This document shows positions 13,483-40,927 of a DNA stretch of 64,000 nt, in pieces. Numbering within the stretch: position 1 is the first letter of the stretch; each line of letters opens with the position of its first letter. The translations under genes were made by a program, and so were the position numbers. The DNA is from Streptomyces sp. MRC013 (lineage in GTDB: Bacteria > Actinomycetota > Actinomycetes > Streptomycetales > Streptomycetaceae), in the NCBI RefSeq assembly GCF_023614235.1, contig NZ_CP094264.1, positions 4,774,001 to 4,838,000 of the forward strand, in the 5' to 3' direction. The notes beneath the pieces are model-generated. The model was not told where the DNA came from. It was given only the letters and a program-made list of their open reading frames with translations, and made no database searches.

Positions 13483-13556
13483 GGCGACCAGCCTGTACCG
13501 TGGAACTTCTTAGGACAAGTGAGATTTTCTTTTTCAGTTTGGTTAGCATCTCTTAC
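13483..13556. promoter_or_regulatory. Divergent promoter region between EamA transporter and LysR gene
   Basis: 74 bp with an AT-rich core (about 13505-13555, including GAGATTTTCTTTTTCAG and GGTTAGCATCTCTTAC). LysR regulators normally bind such regions and control the divergent gene. No clear T-N11-A palindrome was picked out by eye. Confidence 0.45.
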
Positions 13557-14461
13557 ATGTTGAACCTGGAGCGCCTGCGGACCCTCGACGCCCTGGCCCG
13601 GCACGGCTCCGTCAGCGGCGCCGCCGAGGCCCTGCACGTCACGACCTCCGCCGTCTCCCAGCAGCTGGCCAAGCTGGAGCGCGAGGTGGGCCAGCAGCTC
13701 GTGGCGAAGAACGGGCGGGGCGTGCGCCTCACCGATGCCGGGCGGCTGCTCGCCGACCACGCGGCGCGCATCCTGTCGCAGGTGGCGCTCGCCAAGGCGG
13801 ACATCGAGGCCCAGCGCGGCCGGGTGGTGGGGGAGGTGCGGCTGGCCGGTTTCCCGACCGCCGTCCGCGGCCTGTTCCCCCGCGCCATCACCACCCTGCG
13901 GACCCGCCACCCCGAACTGCGCGTGCGCAGCAGCGAACTGGAACCCGAACACGGCATCCGCCGCGTCCTGAGGGGGACGTGGACCTCGCCGTGGTGCTGG
14001 ACTGGAGCAACAAGCGCCTCCCCGTCCCCGGGGGGCTCGCCCACGCCGTCCTCCTGGACGACGCGGCCGACGTGGCCGTGCCCGCCGGCCACCCGCTCGC
14101 CGGACGCGCGGAGGCGGACCTGGAGGACTTCGCCGACGACGACTGGGTCTCCTGGCCGGAGGGCGAGTTCTGCCACGACTGGCTCGTGTTCACCCTGCGC
14201 TCCAAGGGGATCGAGCCGCGCATCGCCCACCTCGCCGGCGAGCACCACACGCAGCTCGCGCTGATCCGGGCCGGTCTCGGCGTGTGCGTCGCGCCCCGGC
14301 TGGGCCGCGGGCCCGTGCCCGAGGGCGTCGCGCTCGTCCCGGTGCGCCGGCAGACGCGGCGCCACATCTACGCGGTGTGGCGCACGGACGCGGACCGGCG
14401 CCCCTCCGTCAGGGCGGCGGTGGAGGCCCTGCGCGAGGCCGGCGCCGCCGTCGAGGGCTGA
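13557..14461 (+). pseudogene. LysR family transcriptional regulator, frameshifted
   Basis: N-terminal winged helix (residues 1-60: LNLERLRTLDALARHGSVSG, then TSAVSQQLAKLERE) followed by a LysR substrate-binding domain. The frame breaks after GIRRVLRG at the G run 13972-13976; adding one G continues in frame with DVDLAVVLDWSNK and gives a product of about 301 aa, the normal family length. Both halves are otherwise well conserved, so the break may be a sequence error. ATG at 13557 is the conserved start. It diverges from an EamA transporter, which it probably controls. Confidence 0.8.
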
Positions 14462-14516: not shown

Positions 14517-16691
14517 TCACCCCCCGAGCGACCTCCGGAGGAACTCCGCCTCCAGCCGCAGCTGGTTGGCGACCACCTCCTCCCGGGTGACCAGGTGCGC
14601 CGCCCCCGGCAGCGGGAGCACCGTGTGGGGCCTGCCCGCGGCGAGCAGCGCGGCGGACAGCCGGAGGGTGTGCGCCGCCACCACGTTGTCGTCCGCCAGC
14701 CCGTGGACCAGCATCAACGGCCTGGTCAGCCGGTGTGCCCGCCCCACCAGCGAGGACCGCTCGTAGTTCCCCGGCTCCACGTCCGGGTGGCCCAGGAACC
14801 GCTCCTCCCAGTGGGTGTCGTACAGCCGCCGGTCCGCGGGGGCGCCGCCGGCGACCGCGGCGTGGAACACGTCGGGGCGGTCCAGCACGGCCCCGATCGC
14901 CAGGTACCCGCCGTACGACCAGCCCCGCACCGCCACCCGCCCCAGGTCGAGGGCCGGGCACCGCTCCGCCGCCGCGTGCAGCGCGTCCACCTGGTCCTCC
15001 AGCGCGGGCCCCAGCCGGTCGCCGCGCACCGCCACCTCCCAGTCCCGGCCGCGCCCCGGCGTGCCGCGCCCGTCGGCGATCAGCACGGCGAACCCCTGCT
15101 CGGCGAACCACTGCGCCACGGCGCTCCACCAGCCGTGCGCCCGCACCGCCAGCCGCACCCCAGGCCCGCCGTAGGGGCTGAGCAGCACCGGCAGCCGCGC
15201 CCCGGACGCCGGGTCGTACCAGGACGGCAGGTGCAGGTGGGCGCGCACCGCCCGTTCGCCCAGCGACAGCGGGAGGGCGCGGGGCCGTACCGCGGGGGTC
15301 TCGGCGAGGACCGCGATCCGGCCCGCCGGCCGCCCGCCGCGCAGCACCGGCACGGAGCGGCCCCCGCACGTCAGGGCGTCCAGGACGAGCGTGTCCCCGC
15401 CGACCGCGGCCGTGTGCACCCCCGGCTCGCCGCTCAGCCGCCGGAACGCCGGGCCGCCGCCCCCGGGGTCGTACACCCACACGTGGCTCTCCGTCGGCTC
15501 CTCGCCCCCGGTGAGGTAGACGCGCTCGCCGACCGCGCCCAGCACCTCCCGCACCTGCAGGCCGGCCGGCGAGACCACCTCGCCGACGCGTACCGCGCGC
15601 GTCCCGTCCCGGACGTGCGGGACGACCACCGCCCCGGAGGCGGTGCGCAGCGGCGTGCCCGGCACGAGGGCCACCCACGCCTCGTCGTGCCTCACGTCCA
15701 GCGGCCGCACGGCGCCCGTCGCCGGGTCGGCGGCGAACAGCGCGACCGTGCGCTGGTCCCGGGTCTGGACCTCGAGGTACGGGCCGTGCGCGTCCCAGCC
15801 CGCCGCCGTGACGTACTCGAAGCGCCGGTCCGTCCAGACGCCCTCCGGGTGCTCCCCGGGGTCCGCCCCGGCCGGCGGGCGCACCGCGGTGCGGCGTCCG
15901 TCCAGGCCCACGACGTGGAGGGTCACCCCGGCGTTCGCGGTGCCCGCCGCGGGGTAGCGCAGGACGCGCGGCGGCCGGGCCGGGTCCGCCGGGTCGGCCA
16001 GGTACCAGCGGGCGACGGGCGCCTGGTCGACGCGCGCCACCAGGAGGGCGTCCCCGTCCGGCGACCACCAGTACCCGCGCCGCCGGCCCATGGACTCGGC
16101 CGCCGCGTGCTCCGCCAGCCCGTACGTCACGTCCGGCGCCTCGGGCACGGCCAGCGGCCGGTCCCCCGTGCCGTCCGTCCCGACCACGCGCAGGGCGCCG
16201 CCGGTCACGTACGCGACGAGGGAGCCGTCCGGGGAGGGGCGCGGGTCCACGGCCGGGCCCGCCGCGGGGACGGGCCACGGCTCCCCGCCGCCCGTGCGCA
16301 CCGCCCACAGGGCGCCGCCGAGGGCGAACACCGCCAGACGGGCCGCCCGGTCCGTCGCGTACGAGGTGATCCCCGAGGACGTGACGCGGGCCCGCTCCCG
16401 CCGGACCCCCTCCTCCTCCGGGAGCGACTCCTCGCCCGGCCCGCCGAGCGCGGCCGGGTCGGCCAGCAGCCGCTCCGCGCCGTCCTCGAACAGCCACAGC
16501 CGGCTCACCGGGTCGGTACCCGACCCGGTCCGCACGAAGAGCACCCGCGCGCCGTCCGGCGAGACCGTGAACCGGCCCGGCAGGCCCAGGGAGAACCGCC
16601 GGGTGCGTGCGAAGACATCGGGGAAACCGGCCACCGCCGGCGACGGCGAGGGCGCGGAAGGGGGCGCGGGCGGGGGAGGTACGGGGGTCAC
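14517..16691 (-). CDS. S9 family prolyl oligopeptidase (DPP IV-like)
   Basis: Serine peptidase with an N-terminal beta-propeller (about residues 30-470) and a C-terminal alpha/beta hydrolase domain. The nucleophile lies in GWSYGGYL (Ser about residue 592), the Asp in HGLADDNV and the His in GAAHLVTR; the double Glu that binds the free N-terminus in DPP IV appears in the propeller segment near YGLAEHAAAES. The enzyme probably removes dipeptides from peptide N-termini; no signal peptide is seen, so it is cytosolic. Start: GTG at 16691 is preferred over the GTG at 16721, which lies inside a terminator-like hairpin. About 724 aa. Confidence 0.88.
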   Translation of the reverse strand: MTPVPPPPAPPSAPSPSPAVAGFPDVFARTRRFSLGLPGRFTVSPDGARVLFVRTGSGTDPVSRLWLFEDGAERLLADPAALGGPGEESLPEEEGVRRERARVTSSGITSYATDRAARLAVFALGGALWAVRTGGGEPWPVPAAGPAVDPRPSPDGSLVAYVTGGALRVVGTDGTGDRPLAVPEAPDVTYGLAEHAAAESMGRRRGYWWSPDGDALLVARVDQAPVARWYLADPADPARPPRVLRYPAAGTANAGVTLHVVGLDGRRTAVRPPAGADPGEHPEGVWTDRRFEYVTAAGWDAHGPYLEVQTRDQRTVALFAADPATGAVRPLDVRHDEAWVALVPGTPLRTASGAVVVPHVRDGTRAVRVGEVVSPAGLQVREVLGAVGERVYLTGGEEPTESHVWVYDPGGGGPAFRRLSGEPGVHTAAVGGDTLVLDALTCGGRSVPVLRGGRPAGRIAVLAETPAVRPRALPLSLGERAVRAHLHLPSWYDPASGARLPVLLSPYGGPGVRLAVRAHGWWSAVAQWFAEQGFAVLIADGRGTPGRGRDWEVAVRGDRLGPALEDQVDALHAAAERCPALDLGRVAVRGWSYGGYLAIGAVLDRPDVFHAAVAGGAPADRRLYDTHWEERFLGHPDVEPGNYERSSLVGRAHRLTRPLMLVHGLADDNVVAAHTLRLSAALLAAGRPHTVLPLPGAAHLVTREEVVANQLRLEAEFLRRSLGG

Positions 16692-16711
16692 GCGGGGACC
16701 GCGGCAGGGCC

Positions 16712-16752
16712 GGCCGTCCACGGGCCCCCGGGCGCGCGGCCCGTGGACGGCC
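16712..16752 (-). terminator. Terminator hairpin downstream of the ATP-grasp gene
   Basis: Perfect 15-bp inverted repeat (16712-16726 and 16738-16752) with an 11-nt loop. It lies 3' of the ATP-grasp gene at 16828 and just upstream of the S9 peptidase start, separating the two transcripts on the same strand. Confidence 0.75.
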
Positions 16753-16827: not shown

Positions 16828-18216
16828 TCAGCGGTCGCCGCCGTGGAAGACGCAGCCGACCAGTGCGCCGCTGCCCATGGCGACCACCCCGGCGTCCGGA
16901 TCGGCGCTGGCCCGTACGAAGCCCCCGGCGTACCCGTCGTCGCCGGCGCCGTGCGCGCCCAGGTAGACGCCCCAGTTGGGGAAGAGCTCCCGCACGCCGC
17001 CCGCGCCGTCGGGGAACGGCTCGGCGACGGGGCGGACCCGGCGCTGGACCACGAACGGCCCGTCCATCGCCGAGGCGATCCGGTGCTCCCACTCGGCCGC
17101 GTCCACCTTCCAGCCGGCGGTGATCCCGTTGCCGCCGTGCAGCAGGGTCGGCTTCAGGATCAGCTCGTCCCGGTGGGCCAGGGCGTGGGCGAGCAGGTCG
17201 ACCTCGGTGCCGCCGGGGTCCGTGACGCGCGGGCGCACGTACCGCGTCCAGGGCAGGAGCCGGTCGAGGCAGGCCAGTTCGGCGGCGTCGAACAGGTCGC
17301 GGTGCCGGTCGTCGGAGAGCATCGCCAGGGTGCCCTTGTTGCCGTACAGCTCGGCGTCCAGCCGGCTGCACAGGCCCACCCGGCCCTCCTCGACCGCGGT
17401 CAGCAGCGGCTCCAGCAGGGCCGCCGCCGCGGGGTCGGCCAGGTCCTCGGCCAGGAAGTACCGGAGGACGACGTCGACGGCCCGGCCCGAGACGGTGGGG
17501 CGGCCGTTCGGGTACGTGAACTCGCCGAGGTGGCAGGCGATCCCCTCGAACCCGTGGTCGGCCAGCTTCGCGGCGAGCACCCGCAGCCGGGGCCCCACGG
17601 CGGAGAAGTTCTCCGCGGTGTCCACCACGGCGACGACCGGCGGCCGGTCGGCGGGGACGGTCGCGGCGCACTCGGCGTGCACGGTCCGCGCCATGCTGTC
17701 CAGCGTGTCCCGGTAGCGGAGCCGGTGCCGCCGTACGAACTCCCGGAGCGGCGGGTACGCCAGCATGGCCCGGTTGATGTCGGCGTTCTCGAAGCCGCCG
17801 AGCGCGCTGGTGATGTTGAACTCCAGGAGCCTGAACCCCGTGCCGTCGTGGTAGAGGTCGGCCCGGCCGAGGGGGAGGAGCACCCCGCTCCGGGCGCTGC
17901 GCGTGACCAGCGCCGACTGCAGGGGGTCCATGCCGACCGCCGCGGCCAGCGCGGCGACGCTCCCGCCGAACACCCGCTCCGGCAGCGAGCGCAGCAGCCC
18001 GTAGACGGTGTGGAGGTCGCGCACGACGGCGCGCCGCTCGGCCTCGCCGAGGAAGGCGGGGCCGTCGAGGAGCCGGCCCCCGTACGCCAGCGCGAGCGCG
18101 GCGGACTCCCGGGCGGCGGCCGCGGGACGGCCCCCCGGCGCCTGTCCGGCGAGTTCCCCGCCGTACACGTGGCCCAGCCGCGACCTGGGCGGCACGGGCG
18201 GGTTCGTGGTCGTCAT
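16828..18216 (-). CDS. ATP-grasp-type ligase A of the pseudopeptide locus
   Basis: 462-aa protein clearly homologous to the one at 26370-27731. Shared blocks are LLEFNITSALGGFEN (versus VEFNVSGALGGVVE) and LLPWTRYVRPRVTD, followed by EVDLLAHALAHRDELILKPT, where the Lys before a Gly-rich turn (LLHGGNGI) looks like the ATP-binding segment of glutathionylspermidine-synthase-like or circularly permuted ATP-grasp enzymes. Such enzymes join carboxylates to amines through acyl phosphates, so it probably forms an amide bond in the product. Start ATG at 18216 follows GGAGAGGAC. It runs opposite to the main operon, downstream of the MFS gene. The substrate is unknown. Confidence 0.6.
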   Translation of the reverse strand: MTTTNPPVPPRSRLGHVYGGELAGQAPGGRPAAAARESAALALAYGGRLLDGPAFLGEAERRAVVRDLHTVYGLLRSLPERVFGGSVAALAAAVGMDPLQSALVTRSARSGVLLPLGRADLYHDGTGFRLLEFNITSALGGFENADINRAMLAYPPLREFVRRHRLRYRDTLDSMARTVHAECAATVPADRPPVVAVVDTAENFSAVGPRLRVLAAKLADHGFEGIACHLGEFTYPNGRPTVSGRAVDVVLRYFLAEDLADPAAAALLEPLLTAVEEGRVGLCSRLDAELYGNKGTLAMLSDDRHRDLFDAAELACLDRLLPWTRYVRPRVTDPGGTEVDLLAHALAHRDELILKPTLLHGGNGITAGWKVDAAEWEHRIASAMDGPFVVQRRVRPVAEPFPDGAGGVRELFPNWGVYLGAHGAGDDGYAGGFVRASADPDAGVVAMGSGALVGCVFHGGDR

Positions 18217-18292
18217 CGCATGTCCTCTCCGCGGCGGGCCGCACGTACGGCGCGACGCCGGCGCACTGCCGCGCGGCGCGCCGGCCGCCCGC

Positions 18293-19570
18293 TCAGTCCG
18301 TGTCGGCCGGCCCCGGGGCCGGTTCGGCGCCCCGTTCGGCGCGGGTGATCCACTGGCGGCGGGCACCCGCGAGGAGCGCCACCGCGACGACCGCCATGAC
18401 GGCCGCGCCGGCGCCGAACACGGCGCGGGTGCCGGCCTCGGCGGCGACGATGCCGCCGGCCGCCGCGCCGAGGGGCAGTCCGCCCCAGGCGACGAGCCGG
18501 TACACGCTGTTGGCCCGCCCGAGCAGGTGCTGGGGCACCAGGGTCTGCCGCAGGACGACCACGACGACGTTCCACGTCACCGTCCCGCACGCGAAGATCG
18601 CGAGGGCCGCGCCGGCCGCGTACACCGAGGGGACGGCGGCCAGCACCGTCTCGCTCACGGCGATCAGGGCGGCGGTGGCGACCAGCGCCCCCTCCCGGCC
18701 CAGGCGCCCGGTCAGGGCGGGCGCGAACCGCGAGGCCAGTACGGCTCCCACGGCCTGGCAGGCGAGCATGGCGCCGTACCCGAACGGACCCAGGTGGAGC
18801 ACCTTCCCGCTGTGCACCACGAGCACGGCGAGCATCGCGTTCCCGGCCAGGTTGATCAGGCAGGACACCAGGGCGAGGCTGCGCAGCAGGTGGTGCGAGT
18901 ACAGCCACCTGGCGCCGGCCAGCATCTCCGACAGCACGCCGGCCCTGTCGGGGGCGGGCTCGACCGGCCGGGTGCGCCGGATGCGGCTGACCAGTACGGC
19001 GGAGCACAGGAAGGTGGCCGCGTCCACCCCGAACGGCAGGACCGTCGCCACGCCGAACAGCAGCGCGCCGACGAGCGGGCCGACGAAGCCGGTGCCGGCC
19101 TCCTGGACGGCCATGACACGGGCGTTGGCGGTGGCGAGCCCGGCCTGCGGGGTGAGGAAGGGGACGAGCACCTGGGCGGCGTTGCGGCACAGGACCTCGC
19201 CGACGCCGAGCAGGAACATGCAGACGTAGAGCAGGGGCAGTCCGCCCCAGCCGCCGAGGACGCCGAGGGCGAGCACCGCGAGCAGCACGGCCCGGGCGAC
19301 GTCGACGCGCACCATCATCGCGCGGATGTCGACGCGGTCGACCAGCAGCCCGGCCGGGATGCCGAACAGGATGAACGGCGCGGTGAAGGCGACCGAGGCG
19401 GCGCCGATCAGGCGGGGGTCGTCGGTCAGCCGGGTGGCCAGCAGGGGGGCGGCGGCGATGGTGGCCCCGTCGCCGAGCGAGGAGACGGCGGCGGCCCACC
19501 ACAGCCGGGAGAAGTCGCGTCCCAGGCGCGGCTGGTGCGGGCGGGCCCGGTCAGTCGCCGACGTGCTCAT
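18293..19570 (-). CDS. MFS transporter, probable product exporter
   Basis: 425-aa protein with about eleven to twelve hydrophobic segments in the enterobactin-exporter/macrolide-efflux branch of the MFS. It starts FSRLWWAAAVSSLGDGATI, has the loop GLLVDRVDIRAMMVRVD (the family's basic motif between helices 2 and 3), and ends in a cytosolic tail. Lying 76 bp upstream of ATP-grasp A on the same strand and divergent from the biosynthetic operon, it probably exports the product and gives self-protection. ATG at 19570 fits the family start; a ribosome site is not obvious. Confidence 0.85.
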   Translation of the reverse strand: MSTSATDRARPHQPRLGRDFSRLWWAAAVSSLGDGATIAAAPLLATRLTDDPRLIGAASVAFTAPFILFGIPAGLLVDRVDIRAMMVRVDVARAVLLAVLALGVLGGWGGLPLLYVCMFLLGVGEVLCRNAAQVLVPFLTPQAGLATANARVMAVQEAGTGFVGPLVGALLFGVATVLPFGVDAATFLCSAVLVSRIRRTRPVEPAPDRAGVLSEMLAGARWLYSHHLLRSLALVSCLINLAGNAMLAVLVVHSGKVLHLGPFGYGAMLACQAVGAVLASRFAPALTGRLGREGALVATAALIAVSETVLAAVPSVYAAGAALAIFACGTVTWNVVVVVLRQTLVPQHLLGRANSVYRLVAWGGLPLGAAAGGIVAAEAGTRAVFGAGAAVMAVVAVALLAGARRQWITRAERGAEPAPGPADTD

Positions 19571-20394
19571 GACACCACGCGACAGCGACGCGGCCGGCAG
19601 TCCATCGCCTCCCCCTTCGATCCGCCGCCCCGCCGCCGACGCCCCATCAGTCCGTCGCCACCCGCCGAGGCCCGTACGGTCAGGCGTACGGGATTGCCGA
19701 GGATAGTCGGCGCCCGCGGCGGCGTCGAGGGTGAAGATCGGCTCCGCCGGCGGCCGGCCGCGGAGCCCTCGCCCGGGAGGCCGGGCCGCGCGGACGGGCG
19801 CCGGGACGCGCGCCCGAAAACCGCGGGGTCCGCTCCCCCCGCCGGGGGCCGCCGCGCCGCGCGGACCGAATCCCATTCCGTCGGGAGGGGTTTGAGCCAT
19901 ACATTCTTCTGGTATGTTCGCCGCCGCTGGGCGCTGAACGGGCAGTCAGCAGCGGTGTCCGCAGGGGGAAGGCATGCCGTCGAGGGGGGTTCGCACACTG
20001 TGCCAGGACGCTGTTCCGTGCCCGAGAAGAATCGTTTCGGCGCCACGGTTCGCGGCCGGCCGGTCCCGGTTCTCCCGTTCTCTCGTCGCACGGCCGCGCC
20101 CCGCCTCCCCCCGCACGTCGCCTCTCGGCGGTCCACCGGCGGCGACACGGCCGGCGGCCGCACCGGAGGCGCCGTGGCCGACCAGTCGGCACACGGCCCG
20201 CAACGGGCGCACATCCCGGTGAAGCCCCGGGCGCCCGCAGCCAGGGCTGCCACGAGCAGCCGCGCACATCGAAGGGTGAGGACGACGTTCATGGGAACCT
20301 GCGAACCCGACGCGGCGAGCCGTACGGCCGGCACCCGCCCACACCTCCCGCGGCCCGCGCCGGCCCGCCGCCCGCGGCGCCCCAGGGGCGCACG
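19571..20394. promoter_or_regulatory. Divergent intergenic region of the biosynthetic locus
   Basis: 824 bp between the MFS gene (minus) and the biosynthetic operon (plus), with no recognisable protein. Around 19891-19918 an AT-rich island holds TTTGAG, then 16 nt, then TATGTT, a plausible plus-strand promoter; it overlaps the inverted repeat CATAC-N9-GTATG (19899-19917), which could be an operator. If used, it gives a leader of about 470 nt, long enough for attenuation or a small peptide. No regulator gene lies inside the locus. Confidence 0.4.
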
Positions 20395-21324
20395 ATGAGT
20401 CTCGCGGCGGGCCTGGGAAGCGCCCGCCCGGACACCGCCGAACCGGCGACGGTCGCCGTCGTCGGCACCGGCGCGATCGGCCGGGACCTGGTCAGCAAGA
20501 TCGACCGGTCGCCCGCGCTGGACTGCCGGCTGGTGGCCGGCCGCAACCCGGAGTCGGAGGGCCTGCGGTACGCCGAGCGCCTCGGCTACCCCACCACCGC
20601 CGGCGGCATCCGGGCCGTCCTGGCGGCCGAGCGCCCGTTCGACATCGTCTTCGACGCCACCAGCGCCGCCTCCCACCGCGAGCACTGGCCGCTGCTGGAG
20701 CCGCTCGGGACGCTGGTGATCGACCTGACGCCCAGCAAGATCGGGCGGATGGTGGCGCCCACCGTGACCGGGGTGTCGGCGACGGCCGGGCGCAACGTCA
20801 ACCTGATCAGCTGCGGCGGACAGGCGTCCGTACCCGTCGTGCACGCGCTCGCGGCCGCGTTCCCGGTGACGTACGTCGAGGTCGTCTCGACCGTGGCCAG
20901 CGACGTCGCGGGCCGCGCCACCCGGCTGAACCTCGACGAGTACGTGGCGACCACCGGCCACGCCGTGACGGCGTTCTCCGGCGTGACCGACGTCAAGGCG
21001 ATCCTCAACATCAGCCCGGCGGTGCCGCCGGCGACCTTCCGGACGGCCGTCCACGCCCGCATCGCCGACGCCGACGCGGCGGCGGTGCGCGCGGTGGCGG
21101 ACAAGGCCGCCGAGCAGGTGCGGTCCTTCGCCCCCGGGTACGAGGTCGCCGCCTGCACCGCGGTCGGCGACCGGGTGACGATCACCCTGCAGGTCATGGC
21201 GCACAGCGACGTCCTGCCGCCGTACGCCGGAAACCTCGACATCATCAACTCCGCCGCCGTCATGGTCGCCGAGCAGTACGCGACCCGGCTGGACCGGGTG
21301 GCCGGAAGAGGAGCGACCCCGTGA
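20395..21324 (+). CDS. Acetaldehyde dehydrogenase (acylating), MhpF/DmpF family
   Basis: 309-aa NAD-dependent aldehyde:CoA oxidoreductase. The Rossmann motif [14 protein letters not shown] is at about residues 21-34 and the catalytic Cys is in [16 protein letters not shown] near residue 144. In catechol meta-cleavage pathways this enzyme forms a channelled complex with 4-hydroxy-2-oxovalerate aldolase and turns acetaldehyde into acetyl-CoA; the reaction is reversible. Here it is the first gene of a biosynthetic operon with no ring-cleavage genes, overlapping the aldolase gene by 4 nt (GTGA). I infer it makes or uses an acyl-CoA/aldehyde building block. ATG at 20395 follows AGGGG. Confidence 0.9.
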
Positions 21325-22334
21325 AGAACGTGGTGATCCACGACCCGACGCTGCGGGACGGCCAGCACGCGGTCCGCCACCGGCTGGAGTCGACCGCCCT
21401 GCGCCGCTACGCGGAGGCGGCGGACGCCGCGCGGGTCCCGGTGGTGGAGGTCGGCCACGGCAACGGCCTGGGCGCCTCCTCGCTCCAGGTCGGACCGGCC
21501 GCGGTGAGCGACGACGAGATGCTGTCGACCGTCCGGGAGGCGCTGCGCCACAGCCGGATGGGGGTCTTCATGCTCCCCGGCTGGGGCACCTCCGACGACC
21601 TCCGGCGGGCGATCGCCCACGGGGCCGACGTCGTCCGCATCGGCGTGCACGCCAGCGAGACCTCGCTGGCCGAGCGGCACCTGGACTTCCTGCGGGACGC
21701 CGGCGCCGAGGCCCACTGCGTACTGATGATGAGCCACATGCTCTCCCCGGGCGAACTGGCCGAGCAGGCCGCGCAGGCCGTCGGGTACGGGGCGCAGGCC
21801 GTGGGGATCATGGACTCCGCCGGCCACTTCCTCCCCGCGGACGTCACCGCGCGGATCGGCGCGATCGCCGGGGCGGTCGGCACCACCCCGGTGATCTTCC
21901 ACGGGCACAACAACCTCGGCATGGCCGTCGCCAACTCGGTGGCCGCCGCCGAGGCCGGCGCCCTGATCGTCGACGGCTGCGCCCGCGGCTTCGGTGCGGG
22001 GGCGGGCAACACCCAGCTGGAGGTGCTGGTCCCGGTGCTGGAGCGCAGCGGGTTCGCCACGGGCATCGACCTGTACGCGCTGCTGGACGCCGCCGACCTC
22101 GCCGAGCGCGAACTCATGCCCGCGCCGCCGGTGACCGCCTCGATGAGCATCGTCAGCGGTCTGGCGGGGGTGTTCTCCGGATTCAAGCACCGGGTCGTCG
22201 AACTCTCCGAGGCCGCCGGAGTGGACCCGCGCGACGTCTTCTTCGAACTCGGGCGGCGGCAGGCCATCGCCGGCCAGGAGGACCTGATCGTCGACGTGGT
22301 GGCGGACCTGAGCAGTTCCAGGACAGACGGCTGA
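21321..22334 (+). CDS. 4-hydroxy-2-oxovalerate aldolase family (MhpE/DmpG) protein
   Basis: 337-aa HMGL-like TIM-barrel aldolase with an MhpE-type C-terminal communication domain. The start [16 protein letters not shown] carries the metal-binding Asp and catalytic Arg; the metal-ligand histidines are in [14 protein letters not shown]; the barrel-end Gly-rich loop is [15 protein letters not shown]. It joins or splits pyruvate and an aldehyde. The partner dehydrogenase overlaps upstream, as in degradative pathways, but the neighbours here are biosynthetic. It could supply a 4-hydroxy-2-oxoacid for the downstream CitE-like lyase, or provide acyl-CoA by cleavage; direction is unknown. Confidence 0.88.
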
Positions 22335-22376
22335 CGGGGCAATCGACCCGGTCTTGCGGGAGGGAGGAGAGGTGAC

Positions 22377-23243
22377 ATGGCACTACCGGACGCTGTGACC
22401 GAGTCGGGCGGGCCGGCGGGCGTGGAGGTCGCCCGCATGTCGTTCGACGAGTTCTCGGCCGTCGGCCCCCAGGGGCTGTACCGGGCCGACCGGCCCGTGG
22501 TGATCAGGCTGCCGAGCAGTGTGCAGGGGCTCGGCCGGGACGAAGTGGCCGCACGCCTGGCCGAGATGACCGTCACCCTGTTCACCGAACCGGGCGACAA
22601 GAACCACCCGGGACGCTGGGAGACGCGGGACATCAAGCTCCGCGAGTTCTTCGCGGACGAGCGCCACCTGACCGGCACGGACACCTGGCACCGGGTGGTG
22701 TCGAACATCCGCAGCAGCCCGTCCGACGTGAACGCCGTCATCGGCTTCGACGCCGAGGAGCTCTTCGGCTACGGCAACACCCTGTACGCGGCCAACCTGT
22801 GGATCAGCCACCGCGGCGTGTTCACCAAGAACCACTTCGACGAGTTCGAGAACTTCAACATCGCGCTCGAGGGCCGCAAGCGGTTCATCATCGCCCCGCC
22901 CGGCGTGCGGGACTACTACCCGAGGTCGGTGCTGCGCGGGTTCGGCGACAAGTCCGAGGTGGTCGACCTCGGCGACGTCGACCTGGAGCGCTACCCCAGG
23001 CTGGCGGCCAGGCTCGCCCAGCGCCGCGACTTCGTCCTCGAACCGGGCCACATGCTCTACCTGCCGCTCGGCTGGTGGCACCAGGCCGAGTCGCTGGACG
23101 AGATGAACATCAACGTCAACTTCTGGCTCAAGTCGAAGAAGATCCTCCGCAGGCCGCACGTGCTGGGCGTCGCCCTGTACACGTACGCCTACCGGAGGTT
23201 CAAGGGCGTCTACAGCTACCAGCCCACCGAGGTGAACTCCTGA
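22377..23243 (+). CDS. JmjC/cupin-8-like 2-oxoglutarate Fe(II) oxygenase
   Basis: 288-aa protein with the cupin-8 (FIH-like, JmjC) fold in its second half. NHFDEFENFNIALEGRKRF (about residues 152-170) has the iron-binding His-x-Asp and the downstream Lys that usually binds 2-oxoglutarate; LYLPLGWWHQAESLD near residue 230 supplies the distal His. These enzymes hydroxylate amino-acid side chains or small molecules. In this operon it probably hydroxylates a precursor or the finished pseudopeptide. Its TGA overlaps the ATG of the next gene (TGATG), which points to translational coupling. The start at 22377 follows GGGAGGAGAGG. Confidence 0.82.
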   Translation: MALPDAVTESGGPAGVEVARMSFDEFSAVGPQGLYRADRPVVIRLPSSVQGLGRDEVAARLAEMTVTLFTEPGDKNHPGRWETRDIKLREFFADERHLTGTDTWHRVVSNIRSSPSDVNAVIGFDAEELFGYGNTLYAANLWISHRGVFTKNHFDEFENFNIALEGRKRFIIAPPGVRDYYPRSVLRGFGDKSEVVDLGDVDLERYPRLAARLAQRRDFVLEPGHMLYLPLGWWHQAESLDEMNINVNFWLKSKKILRRPHVLGVALYTYAYRRFKGVYSYQPTEVNS

Positions 23244-24496
23244 TGAGCGAGCGCAAGACCATCACCCCCACCCACCGGTACCGCAACAACGACCGGCTCG
23301 TCGGGATCGGCAACGCCTTCTGGGACATGTCCTACGAACACGGGGTCGCCGGCATCGTCGGCGACCTCCGGGACGGCGTCTTCCACATGCCCGACGGGCA
23401 CGAGTTCGTCAACTTCACGGTCTGCTCCTACCTGGACCTGGACACCCACCCCAAGGTCATCGACGGCGCCGTCGCCTCCCTGCGCCGCTTCGGCGTGCTG
23501 GACCACTGCATCCCGCGCACCCGCGTCCAGACGCCGGTGCTGCTGGAGCTGGAGGAGTCGCTGGGCGAGCTGTTCGGCGCGATGGTGATCAGCGCCGTCT
23601 CCACCGCGGCGGCCAGCACCGGCCTGCTCCCGCTGATCGCGTCGGGGCACCTCGGCAACGGCACCCGGCCGCTGATGGTCTTCGACAAGAACGCCCACGT
23701 CTCGATGGCCAACGCCAAGCCGAACTGCGCCGACGAGACCGAGGTCGTGACCTGCCGCCACCACGACCTCGACTTCCTCGAGGACATGTGCCGCGCCTAC
23801 GAGCGCGTCTGCTACGTGGTGGACGGCTCCGACAGCCTCGGGGGCTACGCGCCCGTCGACGAACTGGCCGCACTGCAGGAGAAGTACAACCTCCTCGTCT
23901 TCTACGACGACTCGCACTCGCTGTCCGCGTACGGCGAGCGCGGCATCGGCTACGTGCGCTCGCACTGCCCGGTGCTGGACGAGCGGACCATCACGGTGGC
24001 GACCCTGAGCAAGGGCTTCGGCGCCGGCGGCACGGCGATCCTGCTCGACGGCTACCCGCAGGAGACGCGCCGGCTCGTCGAGCGGTTCGCGGGTCCGCTG
24101 GGCTACTCGCAGAAGATGAACGCCGCCGCGGTCGGCGCGGCGCTCGCCTCGGCCGAGATCCACCGCACCGAGGAACTCGCCCTGCTACAGGGGCGCCTGC
24201 GGTCCAACATCGCGCTGTTCGACTCGCTGATCGCGACCGAGCAGTCCGGCAGCACGTACCCGATCCGGGTGGTGCCGATGAGCGACGAGACGGTCGTCGA
24301 CGCCGCCAAGCAGGTCTTCGCGGCCGGGTTCTACACCTCGCCGGTGTTCTTCCCGATCGTCGCCCGCGGCACCGCCGGACTGCGCGTGATGCTGCGGGCG
24401 GGGCAGACCGAGGAGCAGATCAGGCGGCTCTGCTCCGCCCTGGTCGACGCCGGGGCGCCCCGGTCGGCCGCGCTGACCGAGCCGGCGGGCCGGTGA
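23243..24496 (+). CDS. Alpha-oxoamine synthase (KBL/AONS-like, PLP)
   Basis: 417-aa PLP enzyme of the alpha-oxoamine synthase family, which condenses an acyl-CoA with an amino acid, usually glycine or alanine, with decarboxylation to give an aminoketone. Landmarks are FTVCSYLDLDTHPKV near residue 59, the PLP-stacking region, VFYDDSHSLSAYGERG near 222 with the cofactor-binding Asp and His, and TLSKGFGAGG near 256 with the Schiff-base Lys. KtmF of ketomemicin biosynthesis is the known precedent for making the carbonylmethylene unit with this fold, and the same lyase and dehydratase classes lie downstream. Start ATG 23243 overlaps the oxygenase stop. Confidence 0.88.
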   Translation: MSERKTITPTHRYRNNDRLVGIGNAFWDMSYEHGVAGIVGDLRDGVFHMPDGHEFVNFTVCSYLDLDTHPKVIDGAVASLRRFGVLDHCIPRTRVQTPVLLELEESLGELFGAMVISAVSTAAASTGLLPLIASGHLGNGTRPLMVFDKNAHVSMANAKPNCADETEVVTCRHHDLDFLEDMCRAYERVCYVVDGSDSLGGYAPVDELAALQEKYNLLVFYDDSHSLSAYGERGIGYVRSHCPVLDERTITVATLSKGFGAGGTAILLDGYPQETRRLVERFAGPLGYSQKMNAAAVGAALASAEIHRTEELALLQGRLRSNIALFDSLIATEQSGSTYPIRVVPMSDETVVDAAKQVFAAGFYTSPVFFPIVARGTAGLRVMLRAGQTEEQIRRLCSALVDAGAPRSAALTEPAGR

Positions 24497-25362
24497 CCGG
24501 CACCGCGCGGGCGGTCCCGCGCAGCATCCTGTACACGCCGGCCCTGTCGCTGGAACGGGTGGTGAAGGCCTGGTCGTACGACGCGGACGTGCACCTGATC
24601 GACCTCGAGGACTCCGTGCCGCCCGCCGACAAGCCGGCCGCCCGCGCGGTGTGCCGGGCCGCGCTGGAGAAGGCCCCCGAGCCGGCGAACGTCGCCGTCC
24701 GCATGAACGAGCTCGGCAGCCTCGCGGCGGTGCACGACGTGCTGATGATGGCCGACAGCCCGGTGAGGCCCGGCATCGTGGTGATGACGATGGTGACCTC
24801 GGCGACCGAGGTCGACCTGCTGCGGCGGACCCTGGCGTCCGCGGGCGCGCACCCGGAGATCTACGTGACCGTCGAGACGGTCGAGGCGGTCACCGGCATC
24901 GACGCCGTCGCGCGCTCGGCCGACGGCCTGGTGCTCGGCTCGGCCGACCTGGCCGCCACGCTCGGGGTCGACATCACCTGGGAGGCCATGCAGGCCGCCC
25001 GGCAGGCGATGGCGATGGCCTGCGCCCGGTACGGCACGGCGTGCATCGACACGGCCAACTTCCGGCTCGCCGAACCGGACGTCCTCACCGAGGAGACCAC
25101 CCGGGTGCGGGCGCTCGGCTTCCACGGCAAGGCGACGGTGCACCCGGGCGAACTCGAGGTCATCAACCGCATCCTGCGGCCCCGCCCCGACGAGCTGGCG
25201 CTGGCGCGCCGGGTGGCCCGGGCCGTGTCGGAGGCCGACGGCGGGATCGCCGTCCTGGACGGCAACATGGTCGGCCCGCCCTTCGCCCGGCTGGCCCGCA
25301 CCACGGTGGCGCGCGAGGACGCCTGGACGAGCCGCTTCGGCGGCGACGGCGGAACGGCATGA
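24493..25362 (+). CDS. HpcH/HpaI (CitE-like) aldolase/CoA lyase
   Basis: 289-aa TIM-barrel of the citrate-lyase-beta/malyl-CoA lyase family. The N-terminus (RSILYTPALS) is typical, followed by DVHLIDLEDSVPPADK with the Mg-binding Glu-Asp pair, VAVRMNELGS, and near the end ALGFHGKATVHPGELEVIN, a diagnostic CitE block. Members condense acyl-CoA with 2-oxo acids. The ketomemicin enzyme KtmA joins phenylpyruvate and malonyl-CoA in this way, so a similar carbon-carbon step is inferred. GTG at 24493 overlaps the upstream stop by 4 nt (GTGA), and the 3' end overlaps the next ATG in the same way. Confidence 0.88.
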   Translation: MTGTARAVPRSILYTPALSLERVVKAWSYDADVHLIDLEDSVPPADKPAARAVCRAALEKAPEPANVAVRMNELGSLAAVHDVLMMADSPVRPGIVVMTMVTSATEVDLLRRTLASAGAHPEIYVTVETVEAVTGIDAVARSADGLVLGSADLAATLGVDITWEAMQAARQAMAMACARYGTACIDTANFRLAEPDVLTEETTRVRALGFHGKATVHPGELEVINRILRPRPDELALARRVARAVSEADGGIAVLDGNMVGPPFARLARTTVAREDAWTSRFGGDGGTA

Positions 25363-26383
25363 CCGCGCCGGTGACGCTCCACGCCGCCGACATGTCCGGC
25401 GACCGGCGGATGACCCGGGTGATCGACGTGCTGGGCGAGATGTTCGCGGACCTGGCCGCCGGCCGGACGCGGTCCCCGGCCCGCACCGTCGTCGAGCACG
25501 GCGACCGGCGCGTCCTCCTGGTCAGCCCCGCCGTCTGGGAGCGTCGCGGGGCGGGCAGCGTCAAGGTCACCACCCTCACCCCGGAGAACCCGGCACGGGG
25601 CCTGCCGCTGATCCACGGGATCGTCGCGCTCACCGACCTGGAGACGGGGCGGATCACCGCCCTGCTGGACGGCGCCGAGCTCACCGCCGTCCGCACCGGC
25701 GCGGTCGCCGCCCTGGCGACCCGCTGGTGTACCCCCGGCGACGCCGACGACATGGCGGTGATCGGCGCGGGGGTGCAGGCGCGCGCCCTGGTCCGGGCGG
25801 TGGCGGCGGTACGCCCGATCCGCACCGTACGGATCCACTCGCGCACGCGCGCCGGCGCCGAGAAGCTCGCCGACCTGGTCCGCGAGACCGCCCCCGGACC
25901 GTCCGGGCGGTGGTCTGCGACACCGCGGAGGAGGCCGTCCGCGACGCGCCGATCGTCTGCACGGCCACCTCGACCGCCGACGCCGCACCCGTGGTGCAGG
26001 CGGACTGGGTGGCCGCCGGGGCGCACGTGAACGTGATCGGCGGAACCCACCCGGACGCCGTCGAACTCGAACCGTCCCTCCTGGCCGGTGCCGTGACCCT
26101 CGTCGAGGACCGGACCGCGGCGCTGGACGGCGCGGGCGAAGTCCGGGCCGCACTGGCCGCCGGACTGATCGGGGCCGAGGACCTGCACGAGCTGGGCCGG
26201 CTGGTGGGCGGCGGGGTCGCCGTCGCCGGCCGGACCTCGGTCCTGCGCACGGTCGGCATGGCCGTCGAGGACACCGCCGCCGCGGTGGCGCTGTTCGAGG
26301 AGTACCGCGCGGCCGGGCGGGAGGCCGCCGGCCCGTCCGCCGTCTCGCCGACAGGAGAAGGGGCGCCCGATGGACGCGTATGA
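25359..26383 (+). pseudogene. Ornithine cyclodeaminase/mu-crystallin family enzyme, frameshifted
   Basis: NAD(P)-dependent Rossmann enzyme of about 341 aa once the frame is repaired. The N-terminal half has GSVKVTTLTPEN and LLDGAELTAVRTGAVAALAT, then the nucleotide motif VIGAGVQARALVRAVA; the C-terminal half has VVCDTAEEAVRDAPIVCTAT and GAHVNVIGGTHPDAVEL. The break is at about 25889-25900 (C-rich run GCCCCCGGACC), where one extra base joins the halves. Family members reduce imines or form opine-like products; here it might reduce an enoyl or imine intermediate. Both halves look intact, so the break may be an error. The operon continues: ATG overlaps upstream, and the 3' end overlaps ATP-grasp B by 14 nt. 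Confidence 0.8.
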
Positions 26384-27731
26384 GGACCTCGGCGCCCGGC
26401 AGGGGCACCCGTGGTTCGGCAGCCGCCGGCTGCGGCCCGCCGCACCGGCGGACACCATCCGGCGGATGCTGCGGCACGAGCTGCGGGACACCGGCTGGCC
26501 GCACCAGCGGATCCTCCCCGCGGCGCCGATGGCGATCCCGCGCACGGCCTACGCCGAGATCTTCCGGGTGAGCGCCGCACTGGTCGAGCTGCTGCGCCGC
26601 ACCGCCCTGGAGACCGGCCCCACCACCGCCGCCAGGCTGGCCGCCTACCGCATGCCCGCCACCGAGGACCGGCTGTGGATCCGCGACCCGTTCCCGGAGG
26701 AGCGGTACGCCGACTGCGTGGTCCGCCCGGACCTGGTCATCGGGCCGGACGGACCGCGGTTCGTGGAGTTCAACGTCAGCGGCGCGCTCGGCGGCGTGGT
26801 GGAGACGCAGAGCCGCCTGGCGGTGTGGTGCAGGCTCCACGCCGACGAGGAGGGCCGGACCCCGTTCCGCTCCCCGAGCCCGTTCGCCGCGCGCGCCGAC
26901 ATGTTCCGGTCGCTCAGCCGGGAACTGGCGCTGGCGCCGCGGGTGGCCCTCGTCGGCAGCTCCCGGGTGAACGGCGTGGAGCGGCGGTACTTCGAGATGG
27001 AGGCCGACTACTACAACAGCCACGGCCTGACCGCGCGCTTCTTCGAGCCCGAGGAGCTGACGGAGGCCTGGGACTGCGCCCCGCACCTGCGCCACCCGAT
27101 CGGACTGCGGAACTTCACCATCCCCGACTGGCTCGAAGCGGGCCTCGACACCGCGCCGGTCCAGGACGCCCTGGACAACGGCTGCCTGCTGGTGGGCACC
27201 CAGACCTCGACCTTCCTGCACAGCAAGCTCACCATGGGCCTGCTGTCGGAGGGACGGCCCTGGATGACCGCGGGCGAGCGCGGGTTCGTCGAGCGGTACC
27301 TCCCGTGGACGCGGATCCTCTCGGAGCGGAAGACCGACCGCGAGGGCCGGCAGGTCGACCTGCTCCCGTTCGTCCTGGACAACCGGGACCTGCTGGTGCT
27401 CAAGGCCGGCCTCGGCGAGTGCGGGAACGAGGTCGTCATCGGCCGCGAGGTCGACCGGGCCGCGTGGGAGTCCGCCGTCGGCGAGGCCGTCGCCGGCGGC
27501 ACCAGCGTGGTGCAGGACTTCGTGCGGCCGCAGACCTGCCGGGTCGCGCTGGTCGCCGACGGCTGCGACGAGCCGTACGACGCCGAGGTCGCCCCGGTGC
27601 TCGGCCCCCTGCTGTTCGGCGGCCGCCCGGCCGGGCTGTTCTGCCGGTTCTTCGGCGACGGCTCCGCCGGGATCGTCAGCGTCCGGGGACGCGGGACGAG
27701 CAGCTCCGACAACGTGGTGGTGGCCGTCTGA
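26370..27731 (+). CDS. ATP-grasp-type ligase B of the pseudopeptide locus
   Basis: 453-aa protein homologous to ligase A at 16828-18216. Shared blocks are RFVEFNVSGALGGVVE at about residue 130, RYLPWTRILSERKTD near 310, and DLLPFVLDNRDLLVLKAG, then GNEVVIG, which matches the Lys plus Gly-rich ATP segment. The N-terminal 90 residues differ more between the two copies, suggesting different substrates. It probably forms one amide bond of the product while A forms the other. Start ATG 26370 has GAAGGGG upstream and overlaps the cyclodeaminase-family gene. A hairpin follows the stop. Confidence 0.62.
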   Translation: MDAYEDLGARQGHPWFGSRRLRPAAPADTIRRMLRHELRDTGWPHQRILPAAPMAIPRTAYAEIFRVSAALVELLRRTALETGPTTAARLAAYRMPATEDRLWIRDPFPEERYADCVVRPDLVIGPDGPRFVEFNVSGALGGVVETQSRLAVWCRLHADEEGRTPFRSPSPFAARADMFRSLSRELALAPRVALVGSSRVNGVERRYFEMEADYYNSHGLTARFFEPEELTEAWDCAPHLRHPIGLRNFTIPDWLEAGLDTAPVQDALDNGCLLVGTQTSTFLHSKLTMGLLSEGRPWMTAGERGFVERYLPWTRILSERKTDREGRQVDLLPFVLDNRDLLVLKAGLGECGNEVVIGREVDRAAWESAVGEAVAGGTSVVQDFVRPQTCRVALVADGCDEPYDAEVAPVLGPLLFGGRPAGLFCRFFGDGSAGIVSVRGRGTSSSDNVVVAV

Positions 27732-27760
27732 CGGCGGCGCCGCCCGCACCCTGCCCCCCG

Positions 27761-27785
27761 CCCCGGCGCGCCGCCCGCGCCGGGG
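27761..27785 (+). terminator. Hairpin between ATP-grasp B and MaoC genes
   Basis: 10-bp perfect inverted repeat (27761-27770 and 27776-27785, CCCCGGCGCG and its complement) with a 5-nt loop in the only sizeable gap (85 bp) of the operon. It may attenuate rather than end transcription, since the MaoC gene fits the pathway. Confidence 0.45.
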
Positions 27786-27816
27786 CCTCCCAGCGACATC
27801 ACCGGAGTGGAACCGC

Positions 27817-28380
27817 ATGACCCTGCGCCGAGTCAAGGACAACGAGTACGTCGAGGAGCACGGCGGGGACTACGAGGACTTCGAGCCCGGCATGGTGATC
27901 CGGCACTGGCCGGGCCGCACCATCTCCGAGGCCGACAACACCTGGCTGACCCTGCTGACGATGAACCAGCACCCGCTCCACTTCGACCGGCACTACGGCG
28001 CCGGGGCCGAGTACGGGAAGGTCCTGGTCAACAGCGGCATCACCCTGTGCCTCGTCGGCGGGATGACCGTGCAGGCGCTGTCGGCGCGGGCGGTGGCCAA
28101 CCTGGGCTGGGACAAGGTCCGCCTGAAGAGCCCCGTCTTCGTCGGCGACACCCTCTACGCGACCAGCCGGATCCTCGGCAAGCGGCTCTCCCGGTCCCGG
28201 CCGGGCCAGGGGATCGTCACGGTGGAGACGACCGGCACGAAGTCGACGGGGGAGACCGTCATCGTCTTCGAGCGGTCGTTCATGGTCCGCTGCCGCGAAG
28301 GCGCCGCCCCGCCGGAGGGGCGGCACCCCGGGGAGGGGGCGCCGTCCCCGGCGGAGGACCGGCCCGACGCCCCCCGATGA
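27817..28380 (+). CDS. MaoC family (hotdog) dehydratase
   Basis: 187-aa hotdog-fold hydratase/dehydratase similar to mesaconyl-CoA hydratase. The catalytic strip LLTMNQHPLHFDRHYG (about residues 48-63, with Asn/Asp and His in the hydratase-2 pattern) is followed by VLVNSGITLCLVGGMTV and FVGDTLYATSRI. It would remove water from the malyl-CoA-type adduct made by the CitE-like lyase, the role KtmB has in ketomemicin assembly. The last 35 residues are a Pro/Gly-rich tail. ATG 27817 follows GGAGTGG. It is the last gene of the locus. Confidence 0.85.
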   Translation: MTLRRVKDNEYVEEHGGDYEDFEPGMVIRHWPGRTISEADNTWLTLLTMNQHPLHFDRHYGAGAEYGKVLVNSGITLCLVGGMTVQALSARAVANLGWDKVRLKSPVFVGDTLYATSRILGKRLSRSRPGQGIVTVETTGTKSTGETVIVFERSFMVRCREGAAPPEGRHPGEGAPSPAEDRPDAPR

Positions 28381-28437
28381 CCGCCAGTCCGTTCGACAGG
28401 GGCACGGACGACGGACCGGTCTGACAGGATGTTCGGC

Positions 28438-29949
28438 ATGACGAGCGAGAATCAGCCCAAGGCAGGCCACCGCGGCACCCCCACCAACACCGCGTTCCGC
28501 GAGTTCATGGCCTCCGGATGGGCATCTTCCGACGACCGTCCGCCCACGCCCCGCACCGAGGCCGCCGACCACGCGGCCCGCCGACGGGCGGCGCTGTCCC
28601 AGCGGTTCCCCGGCGAACGGCTCGTCATCCCCGGCGGCGGCCTGAAGGTGCGCAGCAACGACACCGACTACACCTTCCGACCGCACACCGCCTTCGCCCA
28701 CCTGTCCGGGCTCGGCGCGCACGCCGAACCCGACAGCGTCCTCGTACTCCACCCCGACCCCGAGGGCGGGCACCACGCCGTCCTCTACTTCCGCCCGCCC
28801 GCCCCGCGGGACACCGAGGAGTTCTACACCGACTCCCGGTACGGGGAGTTCTGGGTAGGCTCCCGGCCCACCGTCGCGGACGTCGAGTCGCAGCTCGGCC
28901 TCACCGCCCGCCACATCGACGCCCTCGCCGACGACCTGGCCAAGGACGACGCCGCCGCCCGGCTGCGCGTGGTCCGGTCGGCCGACCCGCAGCTCGACGA
29001 ACTCGTCGACGCCGCCCGCGTCCAGGCGGGCACCTCCCTCTCCGCCGAGGAGCGGGAGGAGGCCGACCAGGAGCTGGCCCGCCACCTGTCCGGGATGCGG
29101 CTCCTCAAGGACGAGTGGGAGGTCGGCGAGATGCGCAAGGCGATCGCCGCCACCCACAAGGGGTTCGAGGCGATCATCGCCACCCTGCCGGAAGCCGTGC
29201 GCAAGGGGCGCGGCGAGCGGTGGGTCGAGGGCGTCTTCGGCCTGTACGCCCGGCACGAGGGCAACGGGGTCGGGTACGAGTCGATCTGCGCCTCCGGCGA
29301 CCACGCCAACACCATCCACTGGACGAAGAACACCGGCGAGGTCCGCGAGGGCGACCTGATCCTGATCGACGCCGGGATCGAGGTGGACTCCCTGTTCACC
29401 GCCGACATCACCCGCACCCTCCCGGTGACCGGCCGCTTCACCGACGTGCAGCGCAGGATCTACGACGCCGTCTACGAGGCGCAGCAGGCCGGCATGGCGG
29501 CGGTGAAGCCCGGCAACAGGTTCAGCGACGTCCACGCCGCCGCGAACGAGGTCATCGCCCGCCGCCTGCACGAGTGGGGGCTGCTCCCCGAGGGGGTCAC
29601 GCTCGAGCAGACCCTCGACCCGGAGGGCGGCGGCTGGCACCGCCGCTGGATGGTCCACGGGACCTCCCACCACCTGGGCATGGACGTCCACGACTGCCAG
29701 CTGCTGCTGCGCGAGGAGTACATGGACGGCGAGCTGAAGCCGGGCATGATCCTCACGGTCGAGCCGGGCCTGTACTTCAAGGCCGACGACCTGCTGGCTC
29801 CGGAGGAGTTCCGCGGCATCGGGGTGCGCATCGAGGACGACGTGCTGGTGACCGAGGACGGCTGCGAGAACCTCTCCGCCGCGATGCCGAGCGCCTCCCA
29901 CGAGGTGGAGGAGTGGATCGCGCGGGTGTCGGGCTCCGCGGGCGCCTGA
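28438..29949 (+). CDS. Xaa-Pro aminopeptidase (aminopeptidase P family)
   Basis: 503-aa metallopeptidase. An N-terminal AMP_N domain (about residues 40-180: DYTFRPHTAFAHLSGL) precedes the pita-bread catalytic domain. Metal ligands are visible as the first Asp in LILIDAGIEVDSLFTADITR, the His in VHGTSHHLGMDVHD, the Glu in ILTVEPGLYF and the Glu in GVRIEDDVLV. It removes N-terminal residues next to proline. This is a housekeeping peptidase and probably unrelated to the upstream locus, although only 57 bp separate it from the MaoC gene. ATG 28438 is the conserved start. Confidence 0.93.
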   Translation: MTSENQPKAGHRGTPTNTAFREFMASGWASSDDRPPTPRTEAADHAARRRAALSQRFPGERLVIPGGGLKVRSNDTDYTFRPHTAFAHLSGLGAHAEPDSVLVLHPDPEGGHHAVLYFRPPAPRDTEEFYTDSRYGEFWVGSRPTVADVESQLGLTARHIDALADDLAKDDAAARLRVVRSADPQLDELVDAARVQAGTSLSAEEREEADQELARHLSGMRLLKDEWEVGEMRKAIAATHKGFEAIIATLPEAVRKGRGERWVEGVFGLYARHEGNGVGYESICASGDHANTIHWTKNTGEVREGDLILIDAGIEVDSLFTADITRTLPVTGRFTDVQRRIYDAVYEAQQAGMAAVKPGNRFSDVHAAANEVIARRLHEWGLLPEGVTLEQTLDPEGGGWHRRWMVHGTSHHLGMDVHDCQLLLREEYMDGELKPGMILTVEPGLYFKADDLLAPEEFRGIGVRIEDDVLVTEDGCENLSAAMPSASHEVEEWIARVSGSAGA

Positions 29950-38129: not shown

Positions 38130-38133
38130 GGCT

Positions 38134-38895: not shown

Positions 38896-38903
38896 CGGGG
38901 GTC

Positions 38904-40840: not shown

Positions 40841-40927
40841 GAGCGTTCCGTTCTCTTGTCTGACGACCGGAAAAGGGAAGGGGGAAAGGGGCGGGGCCGG
40901 TGGTTGAGGACGGCCGGGCAGCCGGGG

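Follow-up and report, generated by a model that had tools for sequence, protein, structure and literature searches.

A Streptomyces locus related to the ketomemicin cluster, with a candidate ketomethylene-type pseudopeptide product and an additional aminopeptidase P gene

What is made by a compact set of carbon-carbon bond-forming enzymes, putative ligases and an exporter, and why a peptidase gene accompanies them, are the questions raised by one locus of Streptomyces sp. MRC013. The locus lies in a stretch of 64,000 nucleotides (positions 4,774,001 to 4,838,000 of contig NZ_CP094264.1), which we call the window and by which all positions are numbered; the host genome has 5.33 Mb, and 13.4 kb of the window shows 94.8% identity to Streptomyces somaliensis DSM 40738. 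A preliminary description had placed ten adjacent genes at 16828-28380 and regarded them as a candidate ketomemicin-like pseudopeptide cluster. We consider, with a probability of roughly one half, that the locus makes a ketomethylene-type (alpha-aminoketone) pseudopeptide, that an OCD-family enzyme does the reduction assigned to KtmF, and that PepP is a resistant copy of the target. Two observations are new here: PepP is an eleventh gene that accompanies the cassette, and OCD stands where KtmF is absent. The genes are as follows.

16828..18216, minus strand: graspA, putative circularly permuted ATP-grasp ligase (open reading frame and weak profile matches)
18293..19570, minus strand: MFS exporter (Pfam MFS_3 / MFS_1)
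20395..21324, plus strand: MhpF, acylating aldehyde dehydrogenase (TIGR03215, 302 bits against a cutoff of 282)
21321..22334, plus strand: MhpE, 4-hydroxy-2-oxovalerate-type aldolase with DmpG communication domain (TIGR03217, 352 bits against a cutoff of 286; PF07836)
22377..23243, plus strand: JmjC/Cupin_8 Fe/2-oxoglutarate oxygenase, FIH-related (HxD and distal His align with FIH)
23243..24496, plus strand: alpha-oxoamine synthase (AONS), KtmB-type (PRK07505, 553 bits against a cutoff of 342)
24493..25362, plus strand: CitE-like acyl-CoA lyase, KtmA-type (best model RipC_Ccl, under cutoff)
25359..26383, plus strand: OCD/mu-crystallin-family reductase, frame interrupted in the window (intact in relatives)
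26370..27731, plus strand: graspB, putative circularly permuted ATP-grasp ligase (weak profile matches)
27817..28380, plus strand: MaoC dehydratase/hydratase, KtmC-type (best model RipB_Ich, under cutoff; PF19315, PF01575)
28429..29949, plus strand: PepP, extra Xaa-Pro aminopeptidase of family M24 (Pfam, second genome copy, tree, alignments)

The open reading frames and Pfam bore out the positions and enzyme classes of the first ten genes, the ligase class being weak and the OCD frame interrupted. Pfam matches among the cluster proteins were to MFS, acetaldehyde dehydrogenase (MhpF), HMGL/DmpG aldolase (MhpE), Cupin_8/JmjC, the class I/II aminotransferase fold, HpcH/HpaI lyase and MaoC/mesaconyl-CoA hydratase, and Lys257 of AONS was invariant across 9 aligned rows. 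MhpF through PepP share a strand; five of the junctions between them overlap, by 1-14 bases, and the other three leave gaps of 42-85 bases. A gap of 48 bases separates MaoC from PepP, which the limit at 28380 given in the preliminary description had missed. The two ligase genes were less clear. Neither protein had a Pfam match, and graspB alone had no PDB match. When both were combined in one profile of 37 rows, CP_ATPgrasp_2 was matched in seven of the rows (window graspB not among these) with a best E of 2e-4, and in the PDB the profile matched 3n6x and 9cjn, both at E 0.003. This result weakly suggests that graspA and graspB are circularly permuted ATP-grasp enzymes.

A single AONS scan gave 67 loci, and the 38 of them that also carry CitE are hereafter called core loci. 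A lack of conservation of the genes as a unit had been named beforehand as a refutation; the genes are conserved as a unit, and OCD was found together with CitE in all 38 core loci. MaoC and JmjC occur in 37 each, a related ligase in 35 (graspB itself in 35) and MhpE in 31; graspA relatives, at 71-92% identity, were found in 12 core loci and in one reduced locus, L022. Many bacteria of soil and sea share these genes: the set was met again in Streptomyces, Kitasatospora, Micromonospora, Salinispora and Pseudonocardiales, with the core alone in Nostoc and Trinickia, so a chance grouping is excluded. Two layouts account for most of the loci: type A (19 loci in Streptomyces, Kitasatospora, Streptacidiphilus, Micromonospora and Salinispora) and type III (17 loci, seven in Streptomyces and the others mostly in Pseudonocardiales). 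The Trinickia (L056) and Nostoc (L085) loci keep the core with no graspA or graspB match by BLAST; in the former, one protein gives weak matches to permuted ATP-grasp enzymes, and both loci combine the cassette with a carbamoyltransferase gene. The Nostoc locus also holds PhyH and Asp/Asn hydroxylase genes, and a nonribosomal peptide synthetase (NRPS) was read by eye near its core. MhpF and MhpE are missing from the loci of Salinispora, M. echinofusca and Amycolatopsis xylanica, and in four searched genomes without a locus MhpE only an MhpE of 39-43% identity was found elsewhere. In S. goshikiensis, L162 is a complete type-III cluster that includes PepP, and L022 is a separate locus lacking CitE, OCD and MaoC. 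AONS is uncommon: at E 1e-60 it was detected in 21 of the 295 Streptomyces genomes, 7 of them reaching 70% identity, and at E <=1e-75 in 3 of the 394 genomes that represent the class. The genome of the window is among the 7 and among the 3. In the open-licence PMC literature, combinations of the gene classes matched no paper, and no title or abstract among those listed (12 of 9,096 in one case) described this cluster. As a separate observation, an AONS of about 45% identity lies beside apparent acyl-CoA carboxylase subunits and an MFS protein in four loci (L059, L101, L102 and L103, read by eye); this is a distinct gene set, partly common to Streptomyces, Chromobacterium and Burkholderia loci.

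Seven sister clusters, type B (L091, L092, L093, L095, L096, L098 and L160), resemble the window in carrying MaoC, CitE, AONS, OCD and a graspA/B-related ligase in 7/7 and PepP in 6/7. Unlike the window they have an isopropylmalate-synthase-like enzyme and an IPNS-like oxygenase (7/7) and in four cases an amidase, and they lack MhpF/MhpE and JmjC. No name or description for them was found in the open-licence PMC literature.

According to the part of PMC11943689 consulted, ktmB encodes a pyridoxal phosphate (PLP) acyltransferase, ktmC a dehydratase and ktmF a dehydrogenase, and the preliminary description was wrong to call the dehydratase KtmB and the oxoamine synthase KtmF. One locus, L100, is a complete ketomemicin (ktm) cluster with CitE, AONS, MaoC, a PGM1-type ligase, an amidinotransferase (its E protein matches amidinotransferases at 5e-45) and a zinc-type reductase, in the order ktmA-F given in the same part of that source. 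The window, L100 and the type-B locus L096 each carry CitE, MaoC and AONS in one locus, and the best NCBIfam models of the three proteins, RipC_Ccl, RipB_Ich and PRK07505, are identical in all three. Comparison with the Ktm proteins had been proposed in the preliminary description; besides the shared models, it gave identities between window and L100 of 33% for CitE, 46% for AONS and 55% for MaoC. The ketomemicin-like reading therefore stands for the carbon-carbon bond cassette but falls for membership, since tblastn within the loci gave no homologue of KtmD (the PGM1-type ligase), KtmE or KtmF in any of the 38 core or 7 type-B loci. The absence of an amidinotransferase, noted earlier for the window, thus extends to all core loci. 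Judged by gene content, the window locus is not a ketomemicin cluster; it is sister to ketomemicin but distinct.

The reductase genes showed a reciprocal pattern. OCD is present and KtmF absent in 45 of 45 core and type-B loci, whereas L100 has KtmF and no OCD. Because OCD is found in all of these 45 loci and not in L100, the pattern suggests that OCD performs the reduction of KtmF. Two other ktm-like loci (L099 and L161) are truncated at contig ends, and neither gene was seen in them.

We next consider PepP. The window genome holds another PepP, 54% identical to the cluster copy, and PepP is found at E <=1e-80 in 148 of 150 Streptomyces genomes. Because the cluster copy scores 1157 bits to itself and only 524 bits to the best protein outside the window genome, with no identity above 56%, among the matches listed, it is a separate gene. 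A PepP gene accompanies the cassette in 22 of the 38 core loci and in 6 of the 7 type-B loci, but none was found in the 29 AONS loci without CitE (Fisher p 1e-7 for 22/38 versus 0/28, the rows not being independent of descent). By layout, it accompanies 15 of 19 type-A loci, 7 of 17 type-III loci (all seven in Streptomyces, none of the ten others) and neither of the Nostoc and Trinickia loci.

A tree of 59 PepP sequences was used to place these copies. L130 and L088 were removed as duplicates and L105-L115 as second fetches of cluster copies; L036, L116 and L128 were left out as short pieces (the L036 copy is in two), L046 as partial, L098 as a fragment, and L156, L160 and L162 as fetched later. 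The comparison rows were copies from outside these clusters, and two of the four whose neighbours were read adjoin hydroxyproline-type genes (by eye). Type-A copies group together in one clade (100/100), apart from the common genomic copies. The Streptomyces genomic clade contains a nested clade of five type-III copies (100/100) and, elsewhere, L050 (81/89). Of the type-B copies, three make up a deep clade, and L091 falls in another place. A single clade for all 25 cluster copies was rejected by the approximately unbiased (AU) test (log-likelihood lower by 378, p-AU 8e-42). The tree placement and the AU test together indicate that PepP was recruited into clusters several separate times. An extra copy of a housekeeping enzyme within the cluster and its separate recruitment in different clusters, two of the marks of target-duplication self-resistance, are both found. 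Other extra PepP genes, in L154 and L155, lie beside apparent hydroxyproline-use genes (DHDPS-like, GntR and, in L154, OCD; by eye).

Judged by alignment to E. coli aminopeptidase P, all 25 cluster copies retain five residues and two histidines, which we take to be the metal ligands and active-site histidines. L050 and L091 have another residue in place of a third histidine, as do 2 of 27 genomic copies. Among 292 columns conserved across the 27 genomic copies, the type-III clade differs at 8. One of these 8 is a Leu-to-Ile change just before an active-site histidine, which occurs in 15/15 type-A copies, 4/5 type-III copies and L050. These three sets, which lie apart in the tree, thus show it in 20 of their 21 copies, against 0 of 34 non-cluster copies; this recurrence may be a chance event.

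From these gene classes a pathway can be proposed, in which the product, each substrate, the order of reactions and the target are all predictions. The established chemistry of these families is formation of a 4-hydroxy-2-oxo acid by MhpF and MhpE, addition of acetyl-CoA to a 2-oxo acid by CitE, dehydration by MaoC, and decarboxylative coupling of an acyl-CoA with an amino acid by AONS. In the locus, MhpF would convert an acyl-CoA, acetyl-CoA being the natural guess, to an aldehyde, which MhpE would join to pyruvate, giving the 4-hydroxy-2-oxo acid. CitE would then add acetyl-CoA, MaoC would dehydrate the adduct to an unsaturated acyl-CoA, and AONS would couple this to an amino acid, giving an aminoketone with loss of CO2. 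The OCD-family enzyme would carry out the reduction done by KtmF in ketomemicin, JmjC would hydroxylate, the two ATP-grasp-like ligases would append amino acids, and the MFS protein would export the product. The source of the 2-oxo acid probably varies, being MhpF/MhpE in most type-A and type-III loci, the isopropylmalate-synthase-like enzyme in type B, and primary metabolism in ktm and Salinispora. Given MhpE and JmjC, a hydroxylated side chain is plausible. PepP would be a spare copy of housekeeping aminopeptidase P that remains active when the product inhibits the ordinary enzyme, which would make aminopeptidase P the likely target.

Several points weigh against this proposal. PepP was absent from the fetched DNA of 16 of the 38 core loci, among them the 10 type-III loci outside Streptomyces and those of Nostoc and Trinickia; the Leu-to-Ile change is conservative and missing from type B and L091 (0/4), and resistance of PepP is not evident from its sequence. 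The exchange of OCD for KtmF is deduced from which loci carry either gene, with a single complete ktm locus for comparison, and L159 carries CitE, MaoC and AONS without a match to either reductase. The usual reduction by OCD-family enzymes is of C=N, not C=C. MhpE is lacking in 7 of 38 core loci, so the 4-hydroxy acid cannot be general, and the identity of the ligases depends on weak profile matches. In an AONS tree made by a quick method, with 16 of the 42 type-A rows retained and with long-branch warnings, type A, Nostoc and Trinickia form one group (94), which includes L022 beside type A, and 27 of 28 rows from loci without CitE form their own group (100), the 28th being one very long row. 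In the same tree type B is sister to ktm (99), indicating that OCD and PepP do not simply follow the descent of AONS.

The OCD frame of the window itself is also interrupted. Relative to the nearest relative, the gene has a single-base frameshift near 25.9 kb and does not read through, whereas relatives have intact copies (that of L021 matches PF02423 at E 1e-56), and all other indels within cluster genes between window and L021 are multiples of three. Since a LysR gene and cas3 in the window also look interrupted (by eye), an assembly error is possible, and the three breaks suggest either assembly frameshift errors or real decay.

A more specific form of the proposal is tentative and, in our view, rather doubtful. 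The part of PMC11943689 consulted calls ketomemicins and arphamenines the sole known natural ketomethylene pseudopeptides, and the locus would here make a third class, directed against aminopeptidase P. OCD would reduce C=C by delivering hydride to the carbon that adjoins the carboxylate, as it usually does with imino acids. The hydroxylated P1' side chain from MhpF/MhpE would close to a five-membered lactone mimicking proline, and the clusters would have captured pepP repeatedly as a shield.

It is unlikely that PepP, in a cluster for the same class of pseudopeptide, is instead a maturation enzyme that trims an N-terminal residue added by the ligases to keep the compound inactive in the cell. 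Precedent exists in PepN, which turns leucylblasticidin S into blasticidin S (from the part of PMC4664946 consulted), the catalytic residues of PepP are intact, and separate recruitments fit maturation equally well. Nevertheless, the ligases are retained in loci without PepP, and with a normal PepP already in the genome a dedicated copy would be unnecessary unless its specificity differs.

We give still less weight to a proline-like (pyrrolidine) building block or dipeptide, in which OCD would act as a pyrroline-type imine reductase after ring closure and PepP would see an Xaa-Pro analogue. PepP does cleave before proline, the nearest named models of OCD include pyrroline-2-carboxylate reductases, and in Nostoc the core lies beside the NRPS read by eye, as expected for an amino-acid building block. 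However, OCD does not reach the curated cutoff of any of the 15 models listed, no ring-forming enzyme was identified, and the ktm parallel needs no ring. Two further candidates were rejected. The suomilide/banyaside Abn core was suggested by the glycosyltransferase, carbamoyltransferase and NRPS (by eye) of L085, but Abn is proposed to arise from prephenate, and the main text of PMC10157211, as far as consulted, makes no mention of citrate lyase, aldolase, oxononanoate or cyclodeaminase; parts of PMC8609519 were also used in this comparison. For a bulgecinine parallel, the open-licence PMC literature gave nothing to the point.

A catabolic operon combining itaconate-type degradation (RipB/RipC) with meta-cleavage end enzymes is highly improbable: RipC and RipB are the best models of CitE and MaoC and MhpE/MhpF exceed their equivalog cutoffs, but CitE reaches 183 bits of the required 375 and MaoC 197 of 340 with the ktm proteins scoring alike, Pfam gave no CoA transferase among the scanned cluster genes, ligases, AONS and exporter do not fit catabolism, and AONS is rare in the class (3/394). 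Itaconate degradation (RipABC) and meta-cleavage catabolism were rejected accordingly, as was biotin synthesis (BioF), for which AONS scored 119 bits against a cutoff of 426.

Around the cluster, an S9/DPP-IV-like peptidase gene (14517-16721) adjoins graspA on the same strand; it was rejected as a cluster gene, with only weak 28% matches in 2 of 84 loci, the L021 contig ending before the site. The LysR-type regulator (13425-14461) is seemingly split over two frames (by eye). Downstream, at 34852-46715, lies a Type I-E CRISPR-Cas system with Cas1e and Cas7e matches and a Cas3 frame that looks interrupted, and repeat-bearing open reading frames at 34.8-36.8 kb resemble a CRISPR array (a candidate, by look). 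Two transposase genes at 58959-61296 are of the IS110 type (DEDD_Tnp_IS110) and the DDE_3 type, the latter presumably IS630-like.

If the proposed ketomethylene-type product and the resistant PepP are correct, a widespread sister class, whose repeatedly captured aminopeptidase P suggests the target, would offer natural leads against a proline-specific peptidase, and OCD-family enzymes would gain a testable role as ketone or enone reductases. PepP beside CitE-MaoC-AONS-OCD can serve as a search rule.

Among known systems, the ktm cluster is the closest comparison, sharing with the window a CitE-like aldolase, a MaoC dehydratase and a PLP acyltransferase in one operon, and ligation of ATP-grasp type with no NRPS. 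In contrast, the window has ligases that are not PGM1-type, no amidinotransferase, OCD in place of the zinc-type reductase KtmF, and MhpF/MhpE, JmjC, MFS and PepP in addition. The NikA/NikB pair of nikkomycin, an acylating aldehyde dehydrogenase with an MhpE-type aldolase, likewise serves biosynthesis; the likeness is one of gene classes, and the product class differs from that proposed here. Compared by description only, the proposed product would resemble arphamenine of Chromobacterium, a ketomethylene dipeptide, which the part of PMC11943689 consulted describes as a pseudopeptide inhibiting aminopeptidase B, in being a ketomethylene inhibitor of an aminopeptidase.

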